From Clostridia bacterium (GTDB lineage: Bacteria > Bacillota_A > Clostridia > Oscillospirales > CAG-272), in the NCBI GenBank assembly GCA_017542695.1, contig JAFXWT010000165.1, forward strand, positions 26,042 through 90,041: 64,000 nt of DNA. Direction: 5' to 3'. Of the stretch, positions 33,494 through 42,596 are shown piece after piece (the first letter of the stretch is position 1; the number at the start of each line of letters is the position of its first letter). The position numbers and the translations under genes were made by a program. The notes beneath the pieces were generated by a model. It was not told the DNA's origin. It made no database searches and saw nothing but the letters and a program-made list of their open reading frames with translations.

Positions 33494-36043
33494 ATGAAAA
33501 ACACAATGAAAAAACTTCTTGCGTCCGTTCTTGCGGTCATGATGGTTGTTTCTATCGTTATGATTTTCGCTTCCTGCGAAGACAAACCGACAGGCACGAC
33601 AGCCGAAGCGACGACAGCTGCGACGCAGGCTACCGAAAGCACGGCTCCCGAACGGGTTGTCGAGGTTTTCGAGGGCAATTTCACGTATAAGGATTCCGTA
33701 AGCACACTTGCTACGAACTGGAACCCGCATACGTATCAGACAACTGACGACGCTTATCCGGCAGACTTTATCAGAGTCGGCTTCTACGGCTTCATTTTCA
33801 ACGATGAGCTTCACCCCGTTGAGGGCAAAGATCCCTTCATGGGCTATAAGATCATCCCCGAAATGGCTGCATCTTTCCCCGTTGACGTAACGGAACAGAT
33901 CAAAGCGTCCAACCCCGAATACGGCATTCCCGAGTCCGCAACAAAGGGCTACGCTTACACGATCGACCTCAACCCGAACGCAGTTTGGGAGAACGGCGAA
34001 AAGATCACGGCTGAAGATTACGTATACTCGATGAAGAGACTTCTCGATCCCGAACTTCTCAACTACAGAGCTCAGGACTATATCACGGGTACGTTCATCA
34101 TCGCCAACGGCGCGAACTACTACTATCAGGGCACAACAGCTTACAACGCAATCGGCGCTACAGCTTCCGAATACGCGGCAAACGGCGGAGACGTCAACAA
34201 CCTCTTCATCAATTGCTACGATTTCTGGGGCGCAAGCGAAAAATACACGGATGCTGAGGGCAACCCCGCTCCGCAGTATGTTTCCATCACAGACGAAACA
34301 GTTTACGGCGAAAACGTTGACGACGCGTTCTCCGGCAAGAGTCTCTGGGACGAGTACCTCGGCATAGGCGCTCCTTATGAGAGCTACGGCACGGACGAAC
34401 TCGCTGTTGCAGTCACATACGAAGACAACTTCGACTTTGAAAAAGTCGGCATCAAGAAGACAGGCGATTACCAGATCACACTCGTGTTCGGCAAATCTCT
34501 CGCCGGCTTCCAGCTTCTTTACAACCTTTCTTCCAACTGGCTTGTAAACAAGACTCTCTATGAAGCTAACCTTTCCAAGGTAGGCGACACAGACGCTTGG
34601 GCAAGCACATACAACACGTCTGTTGAGACGACTCTCTCCTACGGTCCGTACAAGCTCGTATCGTATCAGAAAGACAAATCCATCAGATTTGAGAAAAACC
34701 CGACGTGGTACGGTTATTCCGACGGTCAGCACATCTACGTTGACCCCGAAGACGGAAAGACATATCCGATGTATCAGACAACCGCGATCGACTGCCAGGT
34801 GGTTGCGGAATCCGCTACAAGAAAGCTTATGTTCCTCAAGGGCCAGCTTATGACATACGGACTTGAGGCAGCAGACCTTACGCAGTATCGTAACAGCGAT
34901 TACACATACGTTTCTCCTTCCGAGACGATCTTCTTCTTCATCTTCAACGGATACAAAGAAGCAATTGACGGACGTGAAGCAAACGAAGGCTTCGACACAA
35001 CGAAGTATGACCTCCAGACAATGACGCTTAAGTCCTTCAGACAGGCAGTTGCCGTAACTTACGACAAAGAAGCTATGTGCGCAGCTCTGTTCCCGGATCA
35101 GTCCGGCGGTTACGGACTTATCGGCGACATGTATATCTACGACCCCGACACGGGCGCTAAGTACCGTGACACAGATCAGGCAAAACAGGCCCTCTGCGAA
35201 TTCTACAGCGTAGACGTATCTAAGTTTGACAGTCTTGACGACGCGGTCGCATCCATCACAGGTTACGACCCCGTTGCAGCTAAAGCGCTCTTCAAGACAG
35301 CGTTTGACGAAGCTCTCGAAGCGGGATTCATCACGGATGCAGATGCTGACGGCAAGTCCGATCAGATAGTAAGAATCGAATACTGCTGCTCTTCCGCAGT
35401 TACAGAGAGAATGCAGCAGAGAATCGATTACCTCAACGAGAAGATGGCCGAAGTAACAAAAGACACTCCGTTTGAAGGCAAGATCGAATTCTATCCGTCC
35501 GCTCCTTACGGCAACGACTGGTCCACAAAGATCAGAACAGGTCTCTCCGACACCATCCTCGCAGGTTGGTCCGGCTCGGCTCTCGACCCGTTCGGCCTTT
35601 CCGACCTCTACGTCAACCCGAGCCGTTCTTACGACGGCAAGTGGTTCGACGCTACGAAGGTTTCCGTTACTATGAATGTCCCCGTTGACGGCAAGGCAAC
35701 AGACGTAACGCTCACCCTCAAAGACTGGTCTGACGCTCTTAACGGCACGGCCGTTAAAGACGCTGCAGGCAAGGAATATAACTTCGGCGAAGATCAGGCT
35801 GATATCGAAGTCAGACTGACTATCCTCGCTAAGATCGAATCCACAGTCCTCCAGACTTACGACTATATCCCGATGCTTCAGGACGGCAGCCTGTTCATGC
35901 TCACACAGCAGGCATACTATGTAATCGAAGATTACAACCCGATCCTCGGTCGTGGCGGCATCACGTACCTCAAGTACAACTATGACGACGCAGCTTGGGA
36001 CGCTTACGTCGCAAGCCAGCCGGACGGCACGCTCAGCTATTGA
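33494..36043 (+). CDS. Oversized family-5 substrate-binding lipoprotein
   Basis: An 849-residue SBP_bac_5 (OppA/DppA-type) binding protein. A signal with lipobox IFASC places the mature Cys near residue 28, followed by a Thr/Ala-rich linker. Typical segments follow, such as WNPHTYQTTDDAYPADF near 75, VWENGEKITAEDYVYSMKRL near 165 and a C-terminal FGLSDLYVNP region. The usual length is 520-600, so about 250 residues are extra, with probable insertions near residues 195-300. Codon choice (many ACA, GCT, CTT, GAA) differs from its neighbours, as expected for high expression. AAGGAG precedes the ATG. Substrate probably peptides or glycopeptides. Confidence 0.9.
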   Translation: MKNTMKKLLASVLAVMMVVSIVMIFASCEDKPTGTTAEATTAATQATESTAPERVVEVFEGNFTYKDSVSTLATNWNPHTYQTTDDAYPADFIRVGFYGFIFNDELHPVEGKDPFMGYKIIPEMAASFPVDVTEQIKASNPEYGIPESATKGYAYTIDLNPNAVWENGEKITAEDYVYSMKRLLDPELLNYRAQDYITGTFIIANGANYYYQGTTAYNAIGATASEYAANGGDVNNLFINCYDFWGASEKYTDAEGNPAPQYVSITDETVYGENVDDAFSGKSLWDEYLGIGAPYESYGTDELAVAVTYEDNFDFEKVGIKKTGDYQITLVFGKSLAGFQLLYNLSSNWLVNKTLYEANLSKVGDTDAWASTYNTSVETTLSYGPYKLVSYQKDKSIRFEKNPTWYGYSDGQHIYVDPEDGKTYPMYQTTAIDCQVVAESATRKLMFLKGQLMTYGLEAADLTQYRNSDYTYVSPSETIFFFIFNGYKEAIDGREANEGFDTTKYDLQTMTLKSFRQAVAVTYDKEAMCAALFPDQSGGYGLIGDMYIYDPDTGAKYRDTDQAKQALCEFYSVDVSKFDSLDDAVASITGYDPVAAKALFKTAFDEALEAGFITDADADGKSDQIVRIEYCCSSAVTERMQQRIDYLNEKMAEVTKDTPFEGKIEFYPSAPYGNDWSTKIRTGLSDTILAGWSGSALDPFGLSDLYVNPSRSYDGKWFDATKVSVTMNVPVDGKATDVTLTLKDWSDALNGTAVKDAAGKEYNFGEDQADIEVRLTILAKIESTVLQTYDYIPMLQDGSLFMLTQQAYYVIEDYNPILGRGGITYLKYNYDDAAWDAYVASQPDGTLSY

Positions 36044-36102
36044 TTCCGAGCGATACCATCATATAATTTTCTCTGAATTATTATTCATATTTCATGAGAT
36101 CA

Positions 36103-42162: not shown

Positions 42163-42596
42163 GTGAAAACGAAAACCGCACGAATACAAGCGGAAAATCA
42201 ACGAAGATCGGCTACATCGTCAGCATCGCACTCTGCACTGCCGCCGCTGTCGCCGTGATGATATGGAAGGGCGTTTTCGCCCAGCCCGACGCAAAGAGCG
42301 TGTTCGGCGTTCTGTCCGACGCATTCTTCATTCCCGGCGTTATCTTCGCCGGAGTGGGCGGACTTTCCCGCCTCGGCGCATGGGGCGCTTACGACACCTT
42401 CGGATATATCTTCTCGCGCTTTTCGTTCCACAATATATGGGTGACCGGCGCGCGGAGAAAAAAATACGACAGTCTTTACGACTATAAGCAGAAAAAGAAC
42501 GAAAAGGGTCGCCGCTGGCTCCCGTACGTCCTTTGGACGGGCCTCGGCGCACTCGCGCTCAGCGCGGTGATGATAGTGATCTATTTGATACTTTAA
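42159..42596 (+). CDS. DUF3899 membrane protein
   Basis: A 145-residue protein with about four hydrophobic segments (18-37, 53-72, 77-90, 122-144). The layout, with FFIPGVIFAGVGGLSRLGAWGAYD and a charged loop containing RRKKYDSLYDYKQKK, fits DUF3899, small membrane proteins of Firmicutes with no assigned role. It overlaps the ABC ATPase stop (ATGA) and is the last gene of the importer operon, so it may assist it. Confidence 0.8.
   Translation: MSENENRTNTSGKSTKIGYIVSIALCTAAAVAVMIWKGVFAQPDAKSVFGVLSDAFFIPGVIFAGVGGLSRLGAWGAYDTFGYIFSRFSFHNIWVTGARRKKYDSLYDYKQKKNEKGRRWLPYVLWTGLGALALSAVMIVIYLIL

Follow-up and report, generated by a model that had tools for sequence, protein, structure and literature searches.

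An Opp-type peptide importer with modular add-on domains and DUF3899 as its probable membrane partner

The 64,000-nucleotide stretch of DNA analyzed here (the window) encodes a type I peptide importer of the Opp family that, in the reading we favor at a probability of roughly 0.6, combines an intact transport core with modular add-on domains and with an overlooked membrane partner, a DUF3899 protein. The importer family is real, widespread (it occurs in numerous uncultured bacteria of the gut and in relatives that lack a cell wall) and modular, and the link of DUF3899 to Opp is the strongest new lead and the one most worth experiment. The operon consists of genes for OppA, OppB, OppC, OppD, OppF and the DUF3899 protein; all six reading frames were found, with tight spacing, and their positions and those of the inserts are as follows.

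33494..36043, + strand: OppA-like substrate-binding lipoprotein, 849 aa (Pfam SBP_bac_5, 117.7 bits, cut-off 32.4)
36268..37221, + strand: OppB-like permease, 317 aa, normal size (BPD_transp_1, 120 bits)
37242..38777, + strand: OppC-like permease, 511 aa, or 519 from an upstream ATG (BPD_transp_1, 80.6 bits; OppC_N, 53.1 bits)
37467..38078, + strand: OppC insert, residues 76-279, between TM1 and TM2, predicted alpha/beta domain (pLDDT of 10-residue blocks 87-98)
38781..40955, + strand: OppD-like ATPase, 724 aa (Walker A, Q-loop, signature and oligo_HPY tail)
39150..40268, + strand: OppD insert, residues 124-496, Q-loop to signature, predicted all-helical (pLDDT of 10-residue blocks 77-96)
40942..42162, + strand: OppF-like ATPase, 406 aa from ATG, or 409 from GTG (ABC_tran and oligo_HPY)
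41176..41469, + strand: OppF insert, approximately residues 79-176, Walker A to Q-loop, highly charged (from the span in relatives and from composition)
42159..42596, + strand: DUF3899 membrane protein, 145 aa (PF13038, 40.3 bits, gathering cut-off 23.4)

Since oppF starts within the end of oppD (14-base overlap) and the DUF3899 gene starts on the oppF stop (4-base overlap, ATGA), co-translation of these genes is likely. Pfam and NCBIfam agree on the identities of the Opp subunits (NCBIfam has no model for DUF3899), and the components that characterize an Opp-type system are all present: an SBP_bac_5 protein, two BPD_transp_1 permeases, one of them with OppC_N, and two motif-complete oligo_HPY ATPases. 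The best NCBIfam matches of OppD and OppF are MMSYN1_0167 and MMSYN1_0168, the OppD and OppF of the JCVI-syn mycoplasma line, at 464.7 and 412.2 bits (under the curated cut-offs of 740 and 800, respectively), and OppB scores 235.4 bits with the Opp3B model, under its cut-off of 480. The PDB sequence matches of OppA are peptide-binding proteins (DppE, OppA) over short stretches only, and family membership points to a peptide as the probable substrate. The subunit sizes given in an earlier, sequence-only reading of this region (849, 511, 724 and 406 residues for OppA, OppC, OppD and OppF, with OppB normal) are correct, the usual size of OppA being about 550 residues. In a search for plasmids, matches covered at most 3% of the query.

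The component plan is shared with E. coli Opp/Dpp (8z21, 8z1v-8z1z) and M. tuberculosis OppABCD (8j5q). The AlphaFold models of OppC and OppD align nearly fully with the E. coli proteins (278 of the 278 residues of E. coli OppC and 322 of the 327 of E. coli OppD), and the window differs by the extra parts in four of its five subunits. Despite the inserts, the nucleotide-binding motifs of OppD and OppF are intact, as had been noted from the sequence. According to the available excerpt of PMC12136057, four C-terminal cysteines of E. coli DppD and DppF bind [4Fe-4S]. This four-cysteine motif, a feature of E. coli DppD/DppF and not a general definition of Opp, is absent from the window's OppD (no Cys past residue 553) and OppF (C393 alone in the C-terminal part), and is missing in 169 of the 169 operons compared below. 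Replacement of a lost Fe-S cluster by the inserts or by DUF3899 was considered and rejected for want of any correlation, the motif being missing even in the 13 operons that have a short OppC and no ATPase insert.

The enlargement of OppC amounts to about 204 additional residues from TM1 to the GTNNLGQD motif, on the outer side of the membrane, close to the roughly 210 residues after TM1 reported before. The AlphaFold model (62-sequence alignment, mean pLDDT 89) predicts a folded alpha/beta outer domain. A profile of this insert had no match in the PDB at E≤1, and searches against Pfam gave none for the window's insert and a single-member match in one of 45 relatives. An ETG motif occurs twice and, with an hhalign probability of 25.7% (E 7e-4) in one comparison, is suggestive of a possible internal repeat. 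By position and size only, the nearest likeness is to MalFGK2, where a permease subunit likewise has a large outer portion situated next to the binding protein; the two belong to different permease families, and the insertion point of MalF P2 differs from that of the OppC insert. In the whole-model search, MalFGK2 entries align with the permease core of the OppC model alone, from residue 283 on. The MalF P2 loop moves around MalE (excerpt of PMC8134467), and in Opp/Dpp-type importers the translocator is switched by binding protein and ATP together (excerpt of PMC12136057). By analogy with MalF P2 and MalE, the outer domain of OppC may offer the large tethered OppA a platform for docking and activation.

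The sites of the two ATPase inserts had been placed correctly, and the lengths then estimated (about 365 residues in OppD and 95 in OppF) compare with measured values of 373 and 94: the Q-loop-to-signature span of OppD is 433 residues versus 60 in insert-less relatives, and the Walker A-to-Q-loop span of OppF is 145 versus 51. The description of both inserts as Lys/Glu-rich holds for OppF (K+R 29%, D+E 20%) but hardly for OppD (16% and 17%, versus 13% and 13% in its core). In the AlphaFold model of OppD, built on 94 aligned sequences and with a mean pLDDT of 86, the insert is folded and helical, with helices of up to about 53 residues, so that the inserts of both OppC and OppD are predicted to be folded rather than disordered. 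A profile of the OppD insert gave five weak PDB matches (E 0.04-0.85), of which several are designed helical proteins and the best (E 0.043) a designed coiled coil. Pfam searches gave none for the window's insert and, among relatives, 15 families that were each matched by one member of 40; neither the OppC nor the OppD profile has a convincing relative in Pfam or the PDB. The Foldseek and VIA match lists are dominated by the ABC core, and a missing insert match there carries little weight. The idea that a single domain was copied into both ATPases was rejected, D and F inserts giving hhalign probabilities of 0.2-14.4% in three comparisons. In SMC and Rad50, too, helices are inserted into an ABC ATPase at a point that separates its Q-loop half from its signature half; that of OppD is a multi-helix insert within a single chain, and OppD scores 26.3 bits with SMC_N, under the cut-off of 40. 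The literature search, which reached its sources in part, found no paper on these OppC, OppD and OppF inserts.

The inserts change faster than the cores. In a single comparison, with locus L001, pN is 0.20-0.29 in the inserts, where pS is saturated at about 0.9, and 0.05-0.07 in the cores, where pS is 0.78-0.85; the rate of non-synonymous change in the inserts is thus approximately three to four and a half times that of the cores. With pN far below saturated pS, the inserts are probably under constraint. Across 40 relatives, five positions of the OppD insert are invariant and 22 are conserved at 90% or more.

At E≤0.001, a protein search with OppD gave at least 8000 candidates. Among the matches listed, the 120 best, the window's own included, are 715-751 aa long with 68-100% identity and 98-100% coverage; since the closest relatives are near-constant in length and nearly fully covered, the enlarged OppD is not a chance product. 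A genome scan supplied 80 further loci (the best 80 of at least 581). As a second bait we used OppB, because it lacks an insert and hence does not select for inserts. At E≤1e-60 it was found in 9 of the 391 genomes sampled from the class of L001, and at E≤1e-40 in 199 of the 395 sampled from the class of L052 (Acholeplasma oculi), these limits differing between the two samples; approximately 136 of the 395 reach 1e-60. We infer that the two classes are Clostridia and Bacilli, respectively. The importer is common in the class of L052 and patchy in that of L001. The 120 places taken up from the OppB search comprise 8 from the class of L001 and 112 of those listed for the class of L052. Together with the window and the genome-scan loci (L001-L080), these loci (L081-L200) make 201, of which 178 have complete genes for OppB, OppC, OppD and OppF, and leaving out six duplicates and three operons without readable motifs gave a tree set of 169. 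A hand-picked subset of 39 of these was analyzed with IQ-TREE. L159 was assigned by hand, L114 was counted as carrying the F insert, and L114, L139, L154 and L183 were scored by their first motif readings.

In the tree of 169 operons, 152 enlarged operons form one clade (support 100) apart from the 17 others. OppC is large in all 152 (reading frames of 427-917 aa), the F insert is present in 151 and the D insert in 120. Thirty-two operons have an F insert but no D insert, and one (L045) shows the converse, so that 119 of the 120 operons with a D insert also have the F insert. Presence of the D insert requires three changes on this tree and likewise on the IQ-TREE tree of 39 operons, for which a history with a single change was found in 0 of 200 bootstrap trees. 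The D inserts of the two main groups that carry them are akin in their C-terminal parts (hhalign 96.4%), and that of a third group (G2a) is akin to the insert of the window's group (97.9%), with 0.1% against the first group. The F inserts of differing groups match one another at 66-98%. In OppC, two groups have inserts after TM1 that resemble those of the window's group at 94-98%, over 90 and 145 columns; for the first group with a D insert the value is 84%, over 24 columns only. One gain of the D insert followed by two losses is the history we would prefer to separate gains.

Insert lengths vary widely (+124 to +401 in OppD where the D insert is present, +32 to +370 in OppF where the F insert is), and in kinship-corrected contrasts over the 120 operons with a D insert the two lengths show no significant correlation (r 0.17, p 0.15). 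Among six such length contrasts, that of OppA with OppC alone reached p 0.04, uncorrected. Given the counts, the three changes in the tree and the lack of a significant length correlation, the proposal that the extra parts evolved together is only partly supported and does not hold as stated; in its favor, 119 of 120 D inserts are accompanied by an F insert, and L045 has lost its F insert along with part of its D insert. In 32 operons an F insert occurs with no D insert, the kind of independent occurrence that the earlier reading had named as refuting. A strictly obligate co-evolution of the whole set is rejected by the counts and the tree, and the add-on domains are separable modules. Outside the large clade, four of the 17 operons have an OppC of over 400 aa with normal ATPases. 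The long OppC N-terminus of L068 (normal ATPases) looks like an over-called start, and the OppC of L193-L195 resembles the large clade over only 30-40 columns past TM1.

L045 offers a natural experiment. Its sister, L006, has full inserts (support 100/99 in IQ-TREE, just 52 in the 169-operon tree), and relative to L006 and the window L045 has lost its F insert entirely, about 157 residues of its D insert and about 120 residues of OppA, while retaining the long OppC and DUF3899. From this co-deletion one might suspect that the D and F inserts touch each other; the lengths do not covary significantly, which lends no support to such contact beyond L045. In the incomplete operon L046 both inserts are short (D +168, F +47).

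The mycoplasma-like relatives place an insert elsewhere. In three genomes with in-frame TGA codons (L209-L211), OppD is 345-357 aa and, by length and sequence reading, insert-less, whereas OppF is 773-805 aa with a Q-loop-to-signature span of 520-556 residues versus 58-60; a DUF3899-like protein follows oppF immediately. The OppF insert of these genomes thus occupies the site used by the window's OppD insert, whereas in Acholeplasma the OppF insert lies between Walker A and Q-loop. Mycoplasma and Acholeplasma Opp resemble the window in their large OppC and large OppF insert, with DUF3899 beside opp in L209-L211, and differ from it in that OppD of A. oculi (L052) and of L209-L211 has no insert at the window's OppD site. 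Consistent with such enlargement, M. synoviae OppF has 797 aa and 68% helix (excerpt of PMC7456371) and M. hominis OppA extends to residue 961 or beyond (excerpt of PMC3179953). Between Walker A and Q-loop, OppD has extensions of 18-26 residues in eight operons, and an alignment gap suggests an extension of approximately 210 residues there in the MMSYN1_0167 model. There are two ATPase insertion sites, each used in both OppD and OppF, with the large OppD case between Walker A and Q-loop inferred from that model.

Examination of DUF3899 matches on both strands at the Pfam cut-off of 23.4, which gives presence counts that are lower bounds, indicated that this protein is a genomic partner of Opp. 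In the class of L052, DUF3899 exceeds the cut-off in 139 of 390 genomes, and 137 of the 145 matches listed lie beside opp genes, in four arrangements. A listed OppB is found within 12 kb of 121 matches (74 downstream on the same strand, 31 upstream on the same strand, 14 upstream and divergent, and 2 downstream on the opposite strand). Seven further matches are beside a weaker OppB, four are beside opp genes on other contigs, and five are beside OppF (four also beside OppD) on contigs where OppB was not found. Since 12 kb on either side is a few percent of these genomes (0.6-3.4 million bases), chance is taken as excluded. The remaining eight matches are those of G481, G741, G480, G538, G408 and G522, the second copy in G531 and the second match in G769. 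Of these, G408 is a possible case at a contig edge, G522 lies at a contig end, the second match of G769 contains stops, and those of G481 and G741, being contained in longer frames, may be spurious. In the class of L001, DUF3899 exceeds the cut-off in 9 of 382 genomes and is beside opp in 8 of the 9. Seven of the nine are enlarged-Opp genomes with DUF3899 on the oppB contig, at most about 6.5 kb away; in G382 an operon of normal size has it between its oppA and oppB genes, and in G140 there is no opp gene within 9 kb.

The association holds with or without ATPase inserts. In 106 operons from the OppB search, DUF3899 is adjacent in 69 of 74 with both inserts, 16 of 28 with the F insert alone and three of four with neither (L114 counted as having the F insert). 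It falls below the cut-off in 12 of the 28, in 5 of the 74 and in 21 of the 144 genomes for which an OppB is listed, although our own profile finds a DUF3899-like neighbor in some operons below the cut-off (e.g., L118, L166, L167 and L169). Since some opp operons lack DUF3899, it is not indispensable, and since it also adjoins operons with normal ATPases (L193-L195, L213-L215), it does not need the ATPase inserts. The suggestion that DUF3899 is a partner engaged by the ATPase inserts accordingly finds no support, as it occurs also with insert-less ATPases. A narrower tie to the OppD insert was rejected as well, with DUF3899 matches on both strands and in operons without that insert. In the literature search the term DUF3899 was found in no paper. 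Gene neighborhood makes it most likely that DUF3899 is an overlooked accessory membrane component of Opp, independent of the inserts.

Three other explanations deserve consideration. The additions could be one co-evolved set, in which an ATPase stalk recruits DUF3899, the ribosome or a peptidase and the outer parts take very large substrates. The near-universal pairing of the D insert with the F insert (119 of 120), the joint losses in L045, the two short inserts of L046 and the long helices confidently predicted for the D insert favor this view, which we nevertheless regard as distinctly improbable in light of the 32 operons with the F insert alone, the three changes of the D label, the lack of a significant correlation of D and F lengths and the presence of DUF3899 with insert-less ATPases. 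Somewhat less improbable, though still unlikely, is that two permissive loops of the ATPase fold have simply tolerated expansion, the inserts having little specific function. Drift of this kind would fit the wide range of lengths, the filling of the same two sites in differing subunits, the faster non-synonymous change of inserts than of cores in the comparison with L001 and the repeated changes of the D label. It fits poorly with a pN far under saturated pS, the conserved positions of the D insert in 40 relatives, the predicted folds of the OppC and OppD inserts and, among the 120 closest of the matches listed, a near-constant OppD length.

DUF3899, for its part, could be a mere neighbor, such as a membrane gene that hitchhikes in genomes with few genes. 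Matches away from opp (G480, G538 and the second copy in G531, as well as the doubtful G481 and G741) and the opp operons that lack DUF3899 would be expected in that case. A linkage that survives rearrangement into four arrangements, with 137 of 145 matches beside opp, and that recurs in the two classes sampled as well as in the three mycoplasma-like genomes, makes mere proximity a poor explanation. We therefore retain the reading of an intact Opp core with modular add-on domains and a DUF3899 partner. For that importer, the helical ATPase inserts may serve as cytosolic scaffold or control modules that tune OppD-OppF assembly or the coupling of the ATPases, perhaps touching each other, as the co-deletion in L045 would suggest, and DUF3899 may serve Opp generally, as an accessory membrane subunit or a regulator that is not specific to the ATPase inserts. 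A broader formulation has slightly better than even odds in our judgment: DUF3899 would be a sixth Opp component in Bacilli, Clostridia and mycoplasmas, and the two ATPase sites would be hot spots that receive lineage-specific domains, with this layer of control rebuilt more than once.

For wall-less Firmicutes and those of the gut, Opp is a way to take up nutrients. The natural operons with and without inserts, above all L045 versus L006, provide a comparison set for the function of add-on domains in ABC ATPases. In the minimal cell JCVI-syn3a, 38 membrane proteins that are essential or quasi-essential still lack a predicted function, according to the available excerpt of PMC10127287. If DUF3899 is a component of Opp, a family with no known function would gain a testable role, small genomes included.

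DUF3899, the small membrane protein family PF13038 (gathering cut-off 23.4), was also found beside Opp operons of normal size in three other genomic loci, where its gene lies in the gap between oppA and oppB or is divergent from oppB.

L213:2781-9034, normal-sized Opp operon with DUF3899
L214:5857-10438, normal-sized Opp operon with DUF3899
L215:5176-9738, normal-sized Opp operon with DUF3899

In two further genomes, no opp genes were found in the 14 kb examined around DUF3899-like proteins that score below the cut-off.

L223:6632-7141, DUF3899-like protein, score below cut-off
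L224:6523-6963, DUF3899-like protein, score below cut-off

The DUF3899 protein encoded at L227:7179-7976 is 265 residues long and continues for more than 100 residues past its final membrane segment.

The outer insert of OppC (window 37467-38078) contains a weak putative internal repeat centered on two ETG motifs. The whole window yielded only one Rfam match at the gathering score.

20971-21042, minus strand, tRNA

Unlike E. coli DppD and DppF, the window OppD and OppF (38781-42162) lack the C-terminal Fe-S cysteine motif, which was absent from all 169 operons compared. Four loci (L143, L150, L087 and L088) encode OppD and OppF as a single fused chain in which Walker A and the signature motif each occur twice. 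This chain has 1127 and 1308 residues with the OppD insert, and 664 and 666 residues without it. At another locus, L128, the best OppF reading frame is missing Walker A, which may point to a split gene or to a mistake in the assembly.
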